From: a virus
Virus record (IMG/VR): IMGVR_UViG_3300030085_002148
Location: 6,934-26,975 of that record
Length of the DNA stretch: 20,042 bases
Direction: 5' to 3' (one strand)
Shown here: positions 9,348-18,217 of the stretch, in pieces
How positions within the stretch are numbered: position 1 is the first letter of the stretch
How the letters are laid out: each line of letters begins with the position of its first letter
Notes under the pieces: generated by a model
What the model saw: only the letters and a program-made list of their open reading frames with translations
Databases searched by the model: none
What the model was told of the DNA's origin: nothing
Translations under genes and position numbers: made by a program

Positions 9348-9834
9348 AGATATAAAGTATCCTTTTTTCGGACTGTATAAAAAACCTGAAAAGATTACCT
9401 TTAGTTTAACAAAAATTTTTGCACACAGAACCTTACAAAGTCATAAGGAAACTATAGATGATAAAGCTCTAGAGGGAGATTACTTCGCAAGACTATTACA
9501 AATAGACAAGCGATTAACTTTTGATTGTACTTGTAAAAATTTAGCACAATTAGTTTTCCAAAGACCTAAGTGGGGAATGGACTCTCAAGCAAAACCTCAT
9601 GATATATCTGACATGTCTTATCATACCTCTTTAAAACTTCCTGTAAAAAAAGTGAGAGAGAATTTTGTGTGGTTTGATAAAATTTCTTACCCTTTTGAGA
9701 TACCAACACAAGAAGAGTTAGAAATACCAAAAGACATTTTTGGGGTTCTGATAAGTTTGGAAAATGAGTGGTTTTTAAGAGAGTTTACTATGAATGACAA
9801 AAATCTAGGATTAAGAAAGAAAATACTAGTATGA
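9328..9834 (+). CDS. Hypothetical protein downstream of the polymerase
   Basis: An unrecognised protein of about 168 aa, basic, with a Phe/Tyr-rich N-terminus (KYPFFGLYKKP) and a two-cysteine FDCTC segment. The start is uncertain. The frame opens with TTG at 9313, inside the polymerase gene, but GTG at 9328 gives a 20-base overlap and is my choice; TTG at 9334, two bases after GGGGTGA, is also possible. The stop overlaps the next ATG (ATGA), so the gene is embedded in the coupled operon. No signal peptide, membrane helix or nucleotide-binding motif is visible. Confidence 0.62.
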   Translation: MSLKTYKDIKYPFFGLYKKPEKITFSLTKIFAHRTLQSHKETIDDKALEGDYFARLLQIDKRLTFDCTCKNLAQLVFQRPKWGMDSQAKPHDISDMSYHTSLKLPVKKVRENFVWFDKISYPFEIPTQEELEIPKDIFGVLISLENEWFLREFTMNDKNLGLRKKILV

Positions 9835-10274
9835 AGATTCTAATATGTGGACTATCGGGTAGTGGAAAAAGCACCTTGGCAGAACCTTTTGCTAATCTTA
9901 TTGGAGGTATCTGGCTTAATGCTAATGCTGTTAGGAAACAATATGATGACTGGGATTTTAGTACTAAAGGCAGATTACGCCAGACACTGCGTATGACACA
10001 TATTGCAGATGGTATAGTAATGGCAGGTAAAATAGCAGTAGCAGACTTTATTTGTCCAACACATATTACTAGAGATTGGTTTAATGCTGACTATACTGTG
10101 TGGATGGATACTATAAAAGAGAGTCAGTACCAAGATACAGATGCTGTGTTTGAAAAACCAAAGCACTACGATTACCATGTAGCAAAATGGTTTGATAACA
10201 CGCATACCGAACTTGTAAAAGTAGTTAATAATTATATGCTAGCACAAGCAGGAAAACCTACGGAGAGATTATGA
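9831..10274 (+). CDS. P-loop kinase-like protein resembling adenylylsulfate (APS) kinase
   Basis: A 147-aa P-loop protein. Walker A CGLSGSGKST at 6-15 matches the APS kinase signature, followed by LNANAVR at 29-35 where CysC has LDGDxVR, DFSTKGRLRQTLRM (about 42-55) for the GFS...R...R segment, and VADFICPTHITRDWF at 70-84 for the ICAxISP...R segment. Overall layout is CysC-like, but the substrate-side LDGD is degenerate and the chain is shorter than CysC (about 200 aa), with no lid or C-terminal part. It may phosphorylate a different small molecule, or be an annotation lookalike. It starts at an ATGA junction and ends in another (10271-10274). Confidence 0.7.
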   Translation: MKILICGLSGSGKSTLAEPFANLIGGIWLNANAVRKQYDDWDFSTKGRLRQTLRMTHIADGIVMAGKIAVADFICPTHITRDWFNADYTVWMDTIKESQYQDTDAVFEKPKHYDYHVAKWFDNTHTELVKVVNNYMLAQAGKPTERL

Positions 10275-10504
10275 TGAATGATGAAGAAAAGAAAATAATT
10301 CTTATTACAGATCTAGTAGACCAACGACTGCGTAAAGAACAAGAGATAGAATACTACGAGAAAGAACTACATAAAATACAGGAACGTCTTGGGTATTTGT
10401 ATAAAGAGAAAACGCTTACAGAGACAATACTTGCAATTATACAGACAGACAAAGTAGTAGACATTAAAGAGCATATACAAGCAAAGTTAGAAAATAAAGA
10501 ATAA
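10271..10504 (+). CDS. Short coiled-coil protein
   Basis: A 77-aa highly charged protein, mostly Glu, Lys and Ile/Leu, with heptad-like spacing through QRLRKEQEIEYYEKELHK and the following helix, so a coiled coil is likely. GGAGAG shortly before the ATG serves as ribosome site, and the ATGA overlap with the kinase-like gene supports translation. It has no cysteines or signal peptide. Function unknown; a small oligomerising factor is the most that can be said. Confidence 0.6.
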   Translation: MMNDEEKKIILITDLVDQRLRKEQEIEYYEKELHKIQERLGYLYKEKTLTETILAIIQTDKVVDIKEHIQAKLENKE

Positions 10505-10506
10505 AA

Positions 10507-10830
10507 ATGCAGATAACAAAACTTAAGAATGCAGGTAAAAACGGTTGGTATATTGGTAACTTTGATGCTGCTGTAGTGAAATCAACTACTGTAGAAGTGT
10601 GTTATAACAAGATCAAAAAAGGCCATACAGACCCCCATTATCATACTAAGTGCACTGAAGTTATCTTAGTTTTAAGAGGCAAAGGTATTATAAAAGGTAA
10701 AAAAGTAAAAAAGGGTAATATAATAGTAATTAAACAGGGCGAAATAAATGATCTTGTCGCCATAACAAAGAAGTTTACCGTTGTAGGAGTAAAAATACCT
10801 GCGGGAGGAAGCGATAAGGTTAGGATATGA
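10507..10830 (+). CDS. Cupin-domain protein
   Basis: A 107-aa single-domain cupin. The first metal motif is DPHYH-x4-E (H44, H46, E51), followed by LRGKG (57-61). In the second motif (KGNIIVIKQGEINDLV) the usual His is replaced, so the metal site may be incomplete. Small cupins bind metal and a small sugar, acid or nucleotide, and can be isomerases, dioxygenases or sensors. It lies two bases after the coiled-coil gene and ends in an ATGA with the reductase gene. Substrate unknown. Confidence 0.8.
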   Translation: MQITKLKNAGKNGWYIGNFDAAVVKSTTVEVCYNKIKKGHTDPHYHTKCTEVILVLRGKGIIKGKKVKKGNIIVIKQGEINDLVAITKKFTVVGVKIPAGGSDKVRI

Positions 10831-11546
10831 TAAAGTTATTAGTTATTGAAGTTCAACATTATAGTCAGAGTATGTTTCGTATCCGTACTAATAGGCCTAA
10901 TACTTTTCGATTTACTGCGGGAGAGTTTGTTATGATCAGTTGCAGAGAAAATAGTGTTAAACGTGCCTATAGTATAACGAGCGGTCCTGGAGATGATTAT
11001 TTAGAGTTTCTTAGTATCAAAGTGCCTGACGGAGAGTTAACCCAAGAATTAGTTAGATATGAGCCGGGAGATGTGTTATATATTAATGAACGTACTTCAG
11101 GCACACTAACACTGGCTAATATTGAGCTAGGAGGTAGTTTATGGTTATTAGCAACAGGCACAGGTGTTGCCCCGTTTATTTCTATTCTAAAAGATGGTTA
11201 TACTTATGAACAGTTTAATAAAATAAATCTTATGTGGAGTGTTCGTAGAAGTAACGATTTAAATGTGTATAAAGAAATGCTTCGTACACTTCCAATTAAT
11301 TTTATACCAATCGTAACGCAAGATAAAACTTGGAAAGGTTTAAACAAGCGAATCACTGAGATGATTAGTGCCGGTATGGTACTAACACCAACAGACTTAG
11401 ATCCTAATAAAAATAAAGTGATGATATGTGGGAGTATGGAATTTAATAACGATATAAAATCAATACTAACTAGTTGGGGGTGGCAAGAAGGAAACAGAAA
11501 AACAGCAGGAACTTTCGTACAGGAGAAAGCCTTTGTCTCTCAGTAA
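10827..11546 (+). CDS. fpr: Ferredoxin/flavodoxin-NADP+ reductase
   Basis: A 239-aa FAD enzyme that shuttles electrons between NADPH and ferredoxin or flavodoxin. FAD-binding beta barrel: FTAGEFVMI at about 29-37 and the RAYSIT motif at 46-51. NADP domain: LLATGTGVAPFISIL at 107-121 (family LLATGTGxAPFxSI) and VMICGS at 198-203. The ending EKAFVSQ resembles the AFVEK terminus of bacterial subclass I reductases of the Azotobacter/Rhodobacter type, in which an aromatic residue near the end shields the flavin. The length is close to the family norm (about 255) and all core motifs are intact. It is unusual in a phage genome. Upstream is a cupin gene (ATGA overlap); the helicase gene downstream overlaps by 14 bases. 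Its electron partner, for instance a host flavodoxin, is not encoded here. Confidence 0.9.
   Translation: MIKLLVIEVQHYSQSMFRIRTNRPNTFRFTAGEFVMISCRENSVKRAYSITSGPGDDYLEFLSIKVPDGELTQELVRYEPGDVLYINERTSGTLTLANIELGGSLWLLATGTGVAPFISILKDGYTYEQFNKINLMWSVRRSNDLNVYKEMLRTLPINFIPIVTQDKTWKGLNKRITEMISAGMVLTPTDLDPNKNKVMICGSMEFNNDIKSILTSWGWQEGNRKTAGTFVQEKAFVSQ
11521..11525 (+). promoter_or_regulatory. Ribosome binding site supporting the TTG start at 11533
   Basis: AGGAG lies seven bases before TTG 11533, the ideal spacing, inside the 3' end of the reductase gene. The next alternative, GTG 11554, has no comparable site. Confidence 0.7.
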
Positions 11547-13284: not shown

Positions 13285-13944
13285 ATGGTCGCATGGGATC
13301 AAGCCAAAGGTAAGCAAACTTCTGGCAACCAACAACGCAGAGAAATCCAAAGACTTACTATGGGTATCGGTGATACTAAAATAAGATTAATTGGAGATGT
13401 CATGCCTCGTTACTGTTACTGGGTAGTAACAAAAGAAGGTAAGAAGATGCCTGTAGAATGTCTTCAATTTAGTCGAGAGAACGAGAGTTTTGATAACTCA
13501 GCTCAAGACCCTTTTAAAGAAATTGATGAAGCTATCTATGCAGATAAACCTCAGTTTTCTTATGTTTGTAATGTGATTGATCGTGCAGATGGACAGATTA
13601 AATTATTTGACCTTCGCGCTACAATTTATTCTCAAATCGTAGATTATGCAACTAATCCTGACTATGGAAATCCAGCAGATCCTGCTAATGGTTATGATAT
13701 TACTGTTAAAAAAGAAAAAACAGGACCTCTTCCACAAAATGTTAAATACTCAATTATTCCAGCACGTAATAATGCACCTCTTACAGATGCAGAAAAAGAG
13801 CTTGAGTTATTTGATTTGAGCAAGATTTATAAGCGTCAAACTTATGATGAGCAAAAAGAATGGTTGCTTCAAAATACTGCCTACTTCGCTGGAGACGTTT
13901 CCGACGAATTTAAACCTGTAGAAGATGTGGATGACTTAGCATAA
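13285..13944 (+). CDS. Putative single-stranded DNA-binding protein
   Basis: A 219-aa protein with SSB features: a compact N-terminal domain with aromatic, basic segments (RYCYWVVTKEGKK), a central block (FSYVCNVIDRADGQIKLFDL followed by IYSQI, a P-x-YG segment and NGYDITVKKEKTG) resembling the layout of T4 gp32-type OB proteins, and an acidic tail ending EDVDDLA, like the protein-interaction tips of SSBs. No alignment was possible, so the call rests on this pattern and on lying between replication genes. AAGGAGA lies about six bases before the ATG, one of the strongest ribosome sites here, and the gene is set off from its upstream neighbour by 29 bases, fitting a protein needed in quantity. 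Its TAA overlaps the next ATG. Confidence 0.7.
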   Translation: MVAWDQAKGKQTSGNQQRREIQRLTMGIGDTKIRLIGDVMPRYCYWVVTKEGKKMPVECLQFSRENESFDNSAQDPFKEIDEAIYADKPQFSYVCNVIDRADGQIKLFDLRATIYSQIVDYATNPDYGNPADPANGYDITVKKEKTGPLPQNVKYSIIPARNNAPLTDAEKELELFDLSKIYKRQTYDEQKEWLLQNTAYFAGDVSDEFKPVEDVDDLA

Positions 13945-14756
13945 TGAAAAAATCCTTAGCAGACATGAAACCTGCTGACGGTAAAGAAGCACCGAAGGAA
14001 CGTTCTTTCGGTGCCTTTAAAACTGTTGAAGGTAATCAAGCAACAATTGATTTAGAAAAACTAAGAGAACATAACATTTTCTTTGCCACCCCTTGTTATG
14101 GAGGTATGTTAACAGATCAATTTTTCCTGTCAATGTTTCGTGCTTCTCAAACTTTAATGAGACACGGAATTAACTTTAGAGTAACTACTTTACGTAATGA
14201 ATCACTAGTTACTCGTGCAAGAAATATCCTTACAGCAATGTTTTTAGAATCTGACTGTTCACATTTACTATTTATTGACTCTGACATTGAATTTGATTCA
14301 GATTCTATTCTTAGAGCTTTAGCGTATGACAAACCAATAATGGCCGCTGCTTATCCAAAAAAAGCACTTCCTATTCAGTATGCTATTAATTTTAAATTTC
14401 AAGATATAGATACAAAACAGGTCAGAGTAGAAAATGGTGCAGTAGAAGTGCTTGACGCCTCAACCGGTTTTTTCTTGATTAAAAGAGAAGTGCTTGAAAA
14501 AATGATACAAGCATATCCTGAGCTTCATTACCGTAATGACTCAAATATCGATGAAAAATATAATAAGTATTGCTATGCTCTTTTTGATACATGGTTAGAC
14601 CCTGATGATAATCGTTACTTATCAGAAGATTATACTTTCTGCCGAAGATGGCAAAAAATAGGTGGTGAAATTTGGTTAGACCCAAACACTAAATTAAACC
14701 ATGTTGGAAGTTATACTTTTGAAGGTGATGTTGGAAAAATTATCGGAAACAACTGA
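13944..14756 (+). CDS. GT-A family glycosyltransferase-like protein
   Basis: A 270-aa protein with a GT2/GT-A look. After a charged N-terminal tail (about 1-42) comes FFATPCYGGMLTDQF, then SHLLFIDSDIEFDSDSI with a DSD metal/nucleotide-sugar motif at 112-114, a MAAAYPKK turn, ASTGFFLIKREVLE, and a C-terminal catalytic-like block, LSEDYTFCRRWQKIGGEIWLDP, followed by LNHVGSYTFEGD. This layout is common in phage glycosyltransferases of unknown acceptor. DNA bases, a virion protein or host surface sugars are all possible. It starts by a one-base overlap with the SSB-like gene and overlaps the radical SAM gene by 29 bases, so the three are co-expressed. Confidence 0.78.
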   Translation: MKKSLADMKPADGKEAPKERSFGAFKTVEGNQATIDLEKLREHNIFFATPCYGGMLTDQFFLSMFRASQTLMRHGINFRVTTLRNESLVTRARNILTAMFLESDCSHLLFIDSDIEFDSDSILRALAYDKPIMAAAYPKKALPIQYAINFKFQDIDTKQVRVENGAVEVLDASTGFFLIKREVLEKMIQAYPELHYRNDSNIDEKYNKYCYALFDTWLDPDDNRYLSEDYTFCRRWQKIGGEIWLDPNTKLNHVGSYTFEGDVGKIIGNN

Positions 14757-15693
14757 GTTAGAGTCTGTAATAACAACTTTTTCAGAGTATCAAGTAGAAA
14801 TAGAGTGGGACCTCACTATGAGATGTAACTATTCTTGTAGTTATTGTGTAAGTTACAACAATAATGGTCCCACTCATTTTCAGTCTTTAGATCAATATAA
14901 AGAAGCTTTAGAGTATCTTAAAAATTACCTTGGTAATAAAATTGCTAGAATAGATCTTCTAGGAGGAGAACCAATGTTATACAAAGATTGGGACTCTCTT
15001 CTAAATATCATATATGATTTAAATTTTACTCCAAAAGTTATAACAAATTTATCAATACCTAAAAAGACTTTAGAAAAGAAAATTACAAGACTAATACCAA
15101 AAAACTGTATAGACGTCAGTTGGCACCCTCAATTCGCAGATGAAAAAGAAATACTAAGTAAGATTAAGCTTATTCATGAAAGTGGTCACCTTAGATCAGT
15201 TTCTATTCTCGGAGACCTCCGCTACTGGGATAAAGTATTATCAGCGAGAAAAAGTGTTGATTTTTTAGACACAGCTGAGATATCTTATATAAAAGATGAA
15301 GCTACTACTAAAAATACCGTTGCAACGGAGTTAATTAAATATACTGAGGAACAAAGTAAGATTATAAAAGACTCTTGTGCAAAAAAACCAGATATGAAAT
15401 ATATTACAAAAGTTGTTTATACAGATGGAAAAGAAAAAACTTTTAGTACTATTACAGAGTTTTTTTCTAATGGTATTACAAATTTTAAAGGAATGAAGTG
15501 CGATGTAGGACAGTTACGGCTTCATATAAAACCGACTGGAGATGTATTTCCAAGTGCTTGTTTACTTAACTACCCAAAAGCAAAAATGGGAAATATCTAT
15601 AAAAGAGATTTAGTTAAACCAGTTAACTCCATAAAATGTCCATTTACTTTTTGTGGTTGTGGACCAGATTTAAGGATAAATAAATATGCATGA
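14728..15693 (+). CDS. Radical SAM enzyme with C-terminal cysteine-rich domain
   Basis: Uses a [4Fe-4S] cluster and S-adenosylmethionine for radical chemistry. With the chosen start, the cluster motif C33-NYS-C37-SY-C40 (CxxxCxxC) is in an MRCNYSCSYC context, and GGEP at 79-82 binds SAM. The C-terminus has five cysteines (258, 278, 304, 309, 311) around DVFPSACLLN and GNI, the pattern of SPASM/Twitch-type enzymes that carry extra Fe-S clusters and often modify peptides. The start is uncertain: ATG 14701 gives 330 aa but no ribosome site; ATG 14728, within GAAGGTGATG, gives 321 aa. The substrate cannot be identified. It needs low-potential electrons, and the phage carries a reductase gene about 3 kb upstream. 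An 8-base overlap links it to the oxygenase. Confidence 0.85.
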   Translation: MLEKLSETTELESVITTFSEYQVEIEWDLTMRCNYSCSYCVSYNNNGPTHFQSLDQYKEALEYLKNYLGNKIARIDLLGGEPMLYKDWDSLLNIIYDLNFTPKVITNLSIPKKTLEKKITRLIPKNCIDVSWHPQFADEKEILSKIKLIHESGHLRSVSILGDLRYWDKVLSARKSVDFLDTAEISYIKDEATTKNTVATELIKYTEEQSKIIKDSCAKKPDMKYITKVVYTDGKEKTFSTITEFFSNGITNFKGMKCDVGQLRLHIKPTGDVFPSACLLNYPKAKMGNIYKRDLVKPVNSIKCPFTFCGCGPDLRINKYA

Positions 15694-16330
15694 AAAAACT
15701 TATCAACTTAAGCCTATTACTGGTGATCAGCGTCAGGAGTGTTTAAATAAAATTATTATTAAAAAAGAAGTTTTTGATCAAGAGCTTCACTGGCCTACTC
15801 TTTGTAGAATTTTAAACGCAAATAAACATTTATTTAAAAATGAATATTTTATGAAGTCTCAGACTATTAAAGAATTTGCAGGAAGAACTATTCCATTTAA
15901 GTTATTAGACTCACAGAATGAAATTAGATATACATTTAAAATGTACATGAATACCTGTAGATTTTTAGGACAACAGCTAATTCATGATTATACTAAAGAG
16001 TTACATTTTCCAGATAATACAGAATTAACTAGGTGGGAAATGGGCAGAGAAATGACAGCACATTCTGATAATTCTTGGCCTGACGGAAATAAAACTAACC
16101 ATCCAACTTCCTTTAGAACTTGGTCTGGTATATATTATATTAATGATTTGTATGAAGGTGGAGAGATCTATTTTCCTAGATTAGACTGGGCCTATAAGCC
16201 AGTAGCTAACACTCTGTTATTATTTCCTTCTAATGATAACTTCGTTCATGGTGTTACGAAGGTAACTAAAGGTGAGAGATATACTTTTGCTATGTGGTAT
16301 ACACAAGATTTTCAATACCTTGAAATATAG
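15686..16330 (+). CDS. 2-oxoglutarate/Fe(II) dioxygenase, prolyl 4-hydroxylase-like
   Basis: A 214-aa non-haem iron oxygenase that hydroxylates a target using O2 and 2-oxoglutarate. The iron site is H126-x-D128 (TAHSDN) and distal H188 (FVHGV), with R198 (KGERYTFAMW) placed to bind 2-oxoglutarate. Between them is the family block YYINDLYEGGEIYFP at 150-164, typical of P4H-type enzymes. An N-terminal helical part precedes the barrel. AAGGA at 15672-15676 is nine bases before the ATG, which overlaps the radical SAM gene. The likely target is a protein side chain or a small molecule; nucleic-acid bases are also possible. It ends at the structured gap, so it closes this cassette. Confidence 0.86.
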   Translation: MHEKTYQLKPITGDQRQECLNKIIIKKEVFDQELHWPTLCRILNANKHLFKNEYFMKSQTIKEFAGRTIPFKLLDSQNEIRYTFKMYMNTCRFLGQQLIHDYTKELHFPDNTELTRWEMGREMTAHSDNSWPDGNKTNHPTSFRTWSGIYYINDLYEGGEIYFPRLDWAYKPVANTLLLFPSNDNFVHGVTKVTKGERYTFAMWYTQDFQYLEI

Positions 16331-16507
16331 GTATAGGAGTGACGTGACGCTAAGGCAACTCCGTTGCCACGGCTGCGTCTCTCCGAGACTAAAGCTAGAA
16401 AATAGCAATTCAAACCGTGTTCAACAGCTCTTCACCTGCGGTGCTACGTTGTTCACTTGCTAGAAAACATAAATTAGCATATTTTTTACGAAAGGGCAAA
16501 TTAAAAA
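16331..16507 (+). other. GC-rich structured gap, no gene
   Basis: No credible protein gene, but an unusual series of hairpins. GGCAAC (16354-16359), loop TCC, GTTGCC (16363-16368), enclosed by GACGC (16346-16350) and GCGTC (16375-16379); an alternative stem GTCTC (16377-16381), loop TCC, GAGAC (16385-16389); GCTA-GAAAA-TAGC (16394-16406); and CACC-TGC-GGTG (16433-16443). TGCTA (16458-16462) pairs with TAGCA (16475-16479) ahead of a run of six T at 16482-16487, a possible weak terminator. The stretch to about 16450 is far richer in G+C than its surroundings. A weak promoter (TTGCTA at 16457, TATTTT at 16480) overlaps its end. It could be a small RNA, a processing region or acquired DNA. Confidence 0.6.
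16458..16487 (+). terminator. Possible weak intrinsic terminator
   Basis: TGCTA and TAGCA arms separated by 12 bases are followed by a two-base gap and six T residues. The stem is short and AT-rich, so efficiency would be low. The T-run before a gene with no strong promoter is the best support for its being functional. Confidence 0.3.
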
Positions 16508-17248
16508 ATGTCAGATCAAATCGGACTTGAGCGATTTTTACACGAGGGAAGCGAAAGTTATGTTGCTAAACCAGAAAATATAGATACCTACTGGGATAAT
16601 GACTATGACTTGATGGATCCTAGCGGGTGGGAAGTTAGATATAAACACGAAGCCAATATTGTGTTAGGTATAGTAGAAGATCATGGACCAGTTAATAGCA
16701 TATTAGACATAGGATCAGGGCCAGGAAGGTTAGGTGACCTTGTGCTAGAAAATAGCTCTATGCTAGGAAAGAGCTCTGAACTGATATATGATAGAGTAGA
16801 CGGAGACAGTGCTAAAAGAGCTTTTTTACGTAGAAAATATAGGGGTAGGCATTTTTACACACAAAACTTATTTGATTCATTTGATGTATCAGAAATAAAA
16901 GATAAATATGATATGATTGTAATGAATGACTTTTTAGAACATATCAGAAATCCGAGTTTAATTTTGCAAAGATGTAGAGAAAACTTATGTAGTGAAAAAG
17001 GGTTTGTGTTTGTCTCTATCCCAAACTGGAGAATGGAGCATCACTTCTTTTATCCTGGCTTATTTGATTATGATAACTTTATAAAGTTTATGATATTTGA
17101 GGGATTTCATGTGCTTTTTCGGTATCCATCTTGGGGGTCACATGTACCTATTAGAGTTCCTAAACTAGTAAATGTTGAAACTAAATTGACTGACGATTCA
17201 GTTTTTGATTGGAACTGGTATGCATTATTTGCAAAAAATAAGGAGTAG
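16508..17248 (+). CDS. Class I SAM-dependent methyltransferase
   Basis: A 246-aa methyltransferase. Motif I is ILDIGSGPGRLGDL at 65-78 (family E/DxGxGxG), an acidic VDGD stretch at 97-100 closes strand 2, and YDMIVMNDFLEHI at 134-146 is motif IV/V, like UbiG/CAZy-associated enzymes that act on small molecules or sugars. The N-terminus (1-60) and the WxxxxHHFFYPG-like C-terminal third are not recognised. No DNA-methylase tetrapeptide (DPPY or similar) is visible, so a DNA adenine or cytosine target is unlikely. It begins at ATG 16508 after a long spacer from AAAGGG, and ends three bases before the nuclease gene. Confidence 0.82.
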   Translation: MSDQIGLERFLHEGSESYVAKPENIDTYWDNDYDLMDPSGWEVRYKHEANIVLGIVEDHGPVNSILDIGSGPGRLGDLVLENSSMLGKSSELIYDRVDGDSAKRAFLRRKYRGRHFYTQNLFDSFDVSEIKDKYDMIVMNDFLEHIRNPSLILQRCRENLCSEKGFVFVSIPNWRMEHHFFYPGLFDYDNFIKFMIFEGFHVLFRYPSWGSHVPIRVPKLVNVETKLTDDSVFDWNWYALFAKNKE

Positions 17249-17251
17249 TTT

Positions 17252-18217
17252 ATGATTAAAATTTTATGTAGTGCTGATTGGCACATAAATCTTCACAAAA
17301 AGAAAGTGCCGTTCGATTGGCAGACGTCTAGATTTCGTGAGATGTTTCGTAAACTACTCGCATTAGAACAACGCGTGGATGTGCATATAATCGCTGGAGA
17401 CATCTTTGATAAAAAACCAGAACCAGATGAAATCTCTCTATTTTTGAGTTATATCAATTCGGTCTCAATCCCCACATTCATCATCCCCGGCAATCACGAA
17501 GCTACTAGAAAAGGAGAATCTTTCTTTGAGCACCTTACTGAAAAGAACGCTATCAAAAATGAGAACGTGGTGGTATTTACTAGAAACGGACGTGCGACTA
17601 TCCGAGGCGTATCGTTCCAGTTTTTCCCGTATGGCGAAGTACAAACAGATAATCTACCAACACCAGTCCCAGGCGATATACTCGTTACACACATTAGAGG
17701 AGAAGTTCCGCCGCATATTACGCCGGAATATGATTTCTCCCGTCTCGCACCTTGGGGCTTGTGTTTACTTGGCGATCTACACTTTAATCATCGTTATGGT
17801 GACACTAACTGTTACTATCCTGGTTCTCCGGTAAACACAACTTTTGATCGTGATGAAAAAAGACAGTATGGAGTAGATATATATGACTTTATCGATTCAG
17901 CAAACTACAAACGTGAATTTTATGATCTAGACCTGCCTAAGCTACTTCGCCGTACTATTCAGGCAGGAGAGCAGATGCAATCAGATGAACGTCATCATGT
18001 GATTTATGAGGTAAAGGGTAATATTGATCAACTGTCTAAAATTGAACGCTCTGACCTGCTTGACAAAAAAGTAGTAGAAAAACCACAAGAAGATGTGACA
18101 CTTAACCTTAAAAATAAATCTATCTACGAAGAACTAGAGATTTATCTTAATCATATTAAGGTTGCAGATACAAACACAATCTTAGACGAGTTTAAGAGTC
18201 TTGATCTTAGAGTGTAA
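17252..18217 (+). CDS. sbcD: SbcD/Mre11-like nuclease subunit, T5 D12-like
   Basis: The metal-dependent phosphoesterase partner of an SbcC-like ATPase; processes DNA ends and hairpins. The 321-aa chain carries the calcineurin-like motifs: SADWHIN (D9, H11), IAGDIFD (D50), IPGNHE (N81, H82), VTHIRGE (H147) and LLGDLHFNH (D175, H177), then YYPGSP. All metal ligands are present. The gene matches T5 D12 in kind and in place. The N-terminal 200 residues hold the catalytic domain; the C-terminal part is a helical, charged capping region. It starts three bases after the methyltransferase, and its stop lies 17 bases inside the PP-loop gene. Confidence 0.93.
   Translation: MIKILCSADWHINLHKKKVPFDWQTSRFREMFRKLLALEQRVDVHIIAGDIFDKKPEPDEISLFLSYINSVSIPTFIIPGNHEATRKGESFFEHLTEKNAIKNENVVVFTRNGRATIRGVSFQFFPYGEVQTDNLPTPVPGDILVTHIRGEVPPHITPEYDFSRLAPWGLCLLGDLHFNHRYGDTNCYYPGSPVNTTFDRDEKRQYGVDIYDFIDSANYKREFYDLDLPKLLRRTIQAGEQMQSDERHHVIYEVKGNIDQLSKIERSDLLDKKVVEKPQEDVTLNLKNKSIYEELEIYLNHIKVADTNTILDEFKSLDLRV

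Follow-up and report, generated by a model that had tools for sequence, protein, structure and literature searches.

The virus DNA analysed here, a stretch of 20,042 nucleotides (G000:C1:6934-26975, hereafter the window) of the 28,276-base virus contig IMGVR_UViG_3300030085_002148, encodes a glycosyltransferase (GT) in its replication operon, followed by a radical S-adenosylmethionine (SAM) enzyme (rSAM), a 2-oxoglutarate (2OG) and Fe(II) dependent oxygenase (OXY) and a methyltransferase (MT). We found this GT to be a core gene in a large group of T5-like bacterial viruses, uncultured and for the most part marine, where it is conserved like the replication genes and coupled to the gene of the single-stranded DNA-binding protein (SSB). 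Behind it lies a swappable cassette slot bounded by SbcD, and the rSAM and OXY families are dedicated to this GT. The best reading of that dedication is that rSAM and OXY act on the product of the GT. We propose that the locus is a glycan-tailoring island in an early replication operon, and estimate the probability of this role at roughly 70%.

Conservation of the glycosyltransferase and variation of the cassette

Eighty-odd IMG/VR loci were collected by separate GT, rSAM and OXY searches and compared by tblastn. In a scan led by SSB, the GT was immediately downstream in all 78 loci with room for it (78/78), with a gap of 0 or 3 nt. Mean identity to the window was 90% for SSB, 87% each for GT and PolA, 81% for sbcD and 50% for rSAM. 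Among 62 complete intervals between GT and sbcD, 14 were empty, 21 contained rSAM, 29 contained OXY and 11 contained both, against about 10 expected by chance. On a tree of 40 taxa made from SSB, GT and sbcD, the presence of OXY showed 4 changes and was strongly clustered. That of rSAM showed 10 changes (at least 7 of them forced) and was scattered, with 216 of 500 shuffles giving a count as low.

These counts and the tree indicated that rSAM and OXY are gained and lost independently of each other, therefore no fixed pathway exists and an obligate three-enzyme pathway was ruled out. The initial annotation, made from the window sequence alone, had suggested a stepwise route from hydroxylase to GT to radical SAM enzyme, which is not supported, given this independence and the retention of the GT where the slot is empty. 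It had also named co-occurrence of the genes in other genomes as a check, and rSAM and OXY were not found together beyond chance.

A profile scan of all IMG/VR with rSAM yielded 64 loci, and every one of the 57 that were evaluable at 39% identity or more lay behind a window-type GT (57/57). Relatives of rSAM located elsewhere reached 23-29% identity only. The OXY-led scan of IMG/VR placed 51 of 52 evaluable loci behind a window-type GT, the exception being L266 (43%). Because the scans led by each family land almost only behind the GT, rSAM and OXY are its dedicated partners; the enzymes belong together to this extent, as had been supposed, without forming an obligate pathway. A search for cellular homologues of rSAM gave one remote match only, on a contig of a metagenome-assembled genome that was as long as the contig of viral L217.

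The second position of the slot, occupied by an MT in the window, was highly variable. In other genomes it held a B12-type rSAM, other MTs, an SGNH-like protein or an epimerase, or was empty, and the window-type MT was present in 4 of the 62 complete intervals. Among these cassette genes were B12-binding radical SAM, Methyltransf_24 enzymes and NAD-sugar epimerase, and Pfam gave just a weak DUF6473 match for the SGNH-like protein. A 97-residue fragment in L032 resembles UDP-galactopyranose mutase when judged by eye; Pfam shows only an FAD/NAD-binding fold for it. In most of the genomes lacking OXY that were checked we found no replacement PF13640 or PF13759 enzyme, and G019 has one. In the 80-kb T5-like relative G001 the GT slot was filled by a methyltransferase alone. 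This relative carried two more sugar-related islands (L176:7619-22407 and L178:7261-10661) with UDP-Glc-dehydrogenase-like, epimerase, cytidylyltransferase, hexapeptide transferase, sulfotransferase and carbamoyltransferase-like genes and a true SPASM rSAM.

Features of the encoded enzymes

The GT matched phrog_1574 with an E value of 2e-45, and the Pfam family Anp1 was matched only below threshold. Both aspartates of its DxD motif (D112, D114) were invariant in 62 sequences. A structure model made from these 62 sequences, which replaced a poor model from 23 near-identical sequences, had a pLDDT of 87 and a predicted GT-A fold. The nearest structure was STIV A197 (Z 17.8, root mean square deviation 2.2, 24% identity over 162 residues), followed by the GT-like domain of LH3 (Z 16), Mnn9 and mimivirus R699 (both Z 15.3) and COLGALT1 (Z 14). 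One sequence-level relative of the GT also carries an A197-like annotation.

The longest open reading frame (ORF) of rSAM spans 14701-15693 (330 aa), with translation more probably beginning at the second ATG, position 14728. rSAM passed the PF04055 cut-off, with the three cysteines of a CX3CX2C motif invariant (C34, C38 and C41). Five more cysteines were invariant in the C-terminal part of the alignment (C259, C279, C305, C310 and C312; CX12GX6C...CX4CXC) and are of the auxiliary-cluster type. rSAM did not have the seven-cysteine SPASM domain, with no PF13186 match and five invariant C-terminal cysteines. Its top PDB match was CteB (5wgg, E value 2e-11). Viperin, the top name from NCBIfam and PADLOC, was rejected: the match scored 54 bits, far below the curated cut-off of 180, and covered the N-terminal half only, and PADLOC pVip matched with 58 bits over residues 25-121 only.

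OXY matched 2OG-FeII_Oxy_3 with an E value of 4e-13 (50.5 bits against a cut-off of 27), and not PF12851, the TET/JBP family. The facial triad HxD...H (H126, D128, H188) and the 2OG-binding R198 were invariant across relatives. Prolyl 3-hydroxylase 1 was the top PDB match (8k0e, E value 1e-10) and bacterial prolyl 4-hydroxylase the next, so that OXY appears prolyl-hydroxylase-like by sequence, a likeness that indicates no substrate. Its best PHROG, phrog_2297, bears the label 'DNA endonuclease', which is probably wrong because the match spans the oxygenase core.

Relatives of the glycosyltransferase and a link to TET/JBP

The GT tree showed one clade per genomic context: T5-like SSB, T4-like sliding clamp, UvsY/UvsW, PrkA, oxygenase-plus-tail, and other structural genes. 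GT homologues adjoin the sliding clamp in the T4-like phages phiM12, Ochrobactrum OC, Cr30, DLP6 and RHph_I1_18. In one clade the GT has oxygenase-like genes on one side and the gene of a putative tail protein on the other, and the homologue of ACG-2014f adjoins tail fibre genes. In pelagic T4-like relatives a deoxynucleotide monophosphate (dNMP) kinase (PF21448) or dGTPase-type gene directly follows the GT. At L152:1172-1855 and L160:6792-7385 this kinase overlaps the GT by at most 4 nt and lies upstream of the sliding clamp.

A true TET/JBP gene (PF12851), annotated as 'SNF2 DNA repair protein', was found near the GT in Cr30 and DLP6, and L170 has the gene order cobS-GT-dNMP kinase-TET-clamp. 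Of the 79 stretches in a TET-led scan, 36 contained the GT, which was present in all 29 that reached the clamp. No C5-methyltransferase was found in the genomes of the Cr30, DLP6 and L170 TET genes, and they may therefore act on thymine, in a base-J-like manner, and not on 5-methylcytosine. The clamp position and the TET/JBP genes of T4-like relatives favour DNA as the acceptor of the sugar.

Proposed function and acceptor of the sugar

In the proposed island the GT, translated together with SSB, would move a sugar from a nucleotide-sugar onto one conserved acceptor, and tailoring enzymes would be recombined in and out of the SbcD-bounded slot. Radical SAM and B12-type rSAM enzymes, 2OG oxygenase, methyltransferases, SGNH-like protein and epimerase would form the tailoring set, with rSAM, oxygenase and methyltransferase present in the window, and each enzyme may change either the sugar itself or the product that carries it. 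The epimerase, MTs and B12 rSAM of the slot and the further sugar genes of the 80-kb relative were counted in favour of such an island. As to the acceptor, our tentative choice is the phage's own DNA, which we slightly favour over a phage protein. A varying sugar on phage DNA would shield the genome from host nucleases, as do glucosyl- and arabinosyl-hydroxymethylcytosine (hmC) in T4-like phages. The GT and its swapped decorating enzymes thus look like a fast-changing sugar disguise of phage DNA, less likely of proteins. The initial annotation had ranked DNA behind protein; in view of the replication-module context and of the TET link in T4-like relatives, DNA is no less likely than protein, with both acceptors still candidates.

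Several observations weigh against DNA. The folds nearest to the GT belong to protein- or glycan-acting GTs, its pI is 5-7, and a basic DNA-binding surface, as judged by pI, was not seen. A PF00303 enzyme, TET/JBP and C5-methyltransferase were not found in T5-like contigs of up to 80 kb, nor TET/JBP in the 28-kb contig of the window, therefore these contigs, all of them fragments, show no gene that could supply a hydroxylated base. A T4-type hmC route (no PF00303 enzyme) and a TET route within the T5-like lineage (no PF12851, no C5-methyltransferase) thus appear unlikely as far as these fragments show. ThyX was present in most T5-like contigs, and the PF00303 matches of Cr30 and phiM12 were ordinary thymidylate synthases with the ordinary Asn motif. 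Nor can OXY supply hydroxylated bases in general, since many genomes lack it and most of those checked among them have no other PF13640 enzyme. In addition, one 145-kb contig has TET without GT, phiM12, OC and RHph_I1_18 have GT without TET, the joint presence of TET and GT at the clamp may reflect shared ancestry, and other GT clades adjoin tail or structural genes. It is possible, though less likely than not, that the DNA of this widespread T5-like marine lineage is glycosylated and that interchangeable rSAM, B12-rSAM, prolyl-hydroxylase-like and MT enzymes further remodel its sugar or base, with neither TET/JBP nor a hydroxymethylase involved; this would be an undescribed modular system for diversifying DNA glycans.

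Somewhat less probable than DNA is a phage protein as the acceptor, be it a virion protein or even SSB. OXY and rSAM would then act on this protein as well, or on the sugar attached to it, much like the hydroxylation and glycosylation of collagen by LH3 and COLGALT1. The fold neighbours of the GT would suit this, among them A197, an essential GT of a virus with the capsid protein as its presumed target (PMC10551542), as would the nearness of OXY to prolyl 3-hydroxylase 1 and the GT homologues beside tail genes in ACG-2014f and the oxygenase-plus-tail clade. A protein acceptor requires no prior hydroxylase and therefore fits the empty slots. However, the LH3 match is to an accessory GT-like domain, and fold likeness indicates no acceptor. 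The GT also belongs to a replication operon, the T5-like locus has no virion genes in its vicinity, half of the lineage lacks OXY, and no collagen-like repeat of at least 10 triplets was found in the T5-like stretches examined.

We consider it rather unlikely that GT and cassette change a surface glycan of the host during infection and thereby block rival phages. Surface-glycan clusters typically contain epimerase, methyltransferase and other sugar genes, quick cassette exchange fits an arms race, and pelagimyophage GTs have been read as modifying host surface glycans (PMC7029224). Against this, the locus has no membrane protein, flippase or polymerase, and the GT is tied to SSB, retained without a cassette and conserved like replication proteins. 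Least probable is a set of unlinked passengers, in which GT, rSAM, OXY and MT would be independent auxiliary genes that share an insertion hotspot before sbcD and have unrelated substrates. The chance-level co-occurrence of rSAM and OXY (11 against about 10) and the varied second position agree with this, but genes of this kind should turn up at other hotspots as well, and the two families occur almost nowhere in IMG/VR except behind the GT.

If the tailoring island is real, one common lineage of marine phages has a plug-in port through which a glycosylated product can be decorated, and radical SAM and 2OG chemistry are dedicated to this task. The natural series of GT alone, with rSAM, with OXY, and with rSAM, OXY and MT would let single steps be read off. 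The locus would also offer a short enzyme list and a way to ask directly if phages vary the sugars on their DNA to keep ahead of restriction.

Gene borders, spacer and neighbouring genes

The window contains a T5-like replication module with LigA, a D5-like regulator, DnaB, primase, PolA, a helicase and the gp32-type SSB, and its PolA has about 39-41% identity to those of T5-like phages. After SSB follow GT, rSAM, OXY and MT, and then SbcD and an SbcC-like ORF (Table 1). SSB and GT meet in TAATG, with one base common to the stop and the start; the overlap is 29-56 nt between GT and rSAM and 8 nt between rSAM and OXY. The three overlapping modifying enzymes that the initial annotation placed directly after SSB (13944-16330) were confirmed as intact plus-strand ORFs. 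Their classes as GT, radical SAM enzyme and prolyl-hydroxylase-like oxygenase also held, 'SPASM-like' being loose for five rather than seven invariant C-terminal cysteines. The cluster had been drawn one gene short, as the MT lies between OXY and sbcD.

Table 1. Positions of the genes and elements discussed, in window coordinates unless another sequence is named
Feature	Position	Strand	Remarks
SSB, gp32/T5-D11-type	13285..13944	+	phrog_1607, E 1e-26; constant upstream partner of GT
GT, core GT-A glycosyltransferase (fold predicted)	13944..14756	+	270 aa; phrog_1574 family; invariant DxD
rSAM, optional slot-1 gene	14728..15693	+	PF04055; five invariant C-terminal Cys
OXY, optional slot-1 2OG-Fe(II) oxygenase, prolyl 3-/4-hydroxylase-like	15686..16330	+	214 aa; PF13640
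Spacer between slots 1 and 2, conserved, hairpin-rich	16331..16507	+	perfect short inverted repeats
Class I SAM methyltransferase, optional slot-2 gene	16508..17248	+	Methyltransf_23
SbcD-like nuclease subunit, constant right-hand boundary of variable slot	17252..18217	+	phrog_100; synteny
TET/JBP-family dioxygenases	L096:3428-4774 (DLP6); KF301602 59353-60681 (Cr30); L170:4939-6303		near GT

A spacer of about 150-175 nt was always located between slot 1 and slot 2 or sbcD, and was matched by blastn in some 80 relatives. It contains the invariant elements GGCAACtCCGTTGCC, GTCTCtcCGAGAC and CACCTgCGGTG. An Rfam search of the spacer gave no match, and an RNA family could not be supported by covariation, the hairpins being too invariant to show any. 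The spacer is possibly a structured RNA, a promoter or terminator, or a recombination joint for cassette exchange.

A second variable block lies between PolA and helicase (9831-11546) and encodes an APS-kinase-like P-loop kinase, a cupin and a ferredoxin-NADP-reductase-like protein. This reductase might serve as electron donor to the radical SAM enzyme. To the left of the window, on the same contig, L002:2479-4971 encodes TctA (PF01970) and then a TctC-looking protein; these genes of a tripartite tricarboxylate transporter type are possible auxiliary metabolic genes of the phage.

Comparison with known systems

TET/JBP-dependent DNA hypermodification of phages reportedly proceeds by base oxidation and then glycosylation. 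The window lineage shares with it a GT in the replication region and a 2OG-Fe(II) oxygenase, and T4-like GT homologues lie near a true PF12851 gene. It differs in that its oxygenase is prolyl-hydroxylase-like and optional, the GT can stand alone, cassettes are swapped, and neither TET/JBP nor a C5-methyltransferase was found in the T5-like fragments. T4 and RB69, with glucosyl- and arabinosyl-hmC DNA, likewise have a phage GT among replication genes and a sugar that varies between relatives, whereas a dCMP hydroxymethylase-type gene was not found in the T5-like contigs. T4 AGT and BGT have the GT-B fold, while the model of the window GT matches GT-A rather than GT-B. DNA hypermodification that includes radical SAM steps has already been described.

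STIV A197 is, like the window GT, viral and of GT-A fold, and is its best structural match; it is thought to act on the coat protein of an archaeal virus and has no known rSAM/oxygenase cassette. Collagen modification by LH3, COLGALT1 and mimivirus enzymes also combines a 2OG hydroxylase with a GT-A enzyme (fold matches of Z 14-16). LH3, however, hydroxylates lysine within a fused protein, whereas OXY is nearest to prolyl hydroxylases and optional, and a collagen-like target was not found in the T5-like stretches examined. Hypervariable regions of pelagimyophages (PMC7029224) likewise join radical SAM cassettes and GTs in marine phages, but lie by tail fibres and were read as surface glycan synthesis, in contrast to the small slot in a replication operon behind one invariant GT. 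The combination of a GT and a 2OG oxygenase is of a known kind, both in DNA modification of the TET/JBP type and in protein modification of the collagen type. New is the invariant SSB-coupled GT together with a swap-in port that has dedicated rSAM and oxygenase families.

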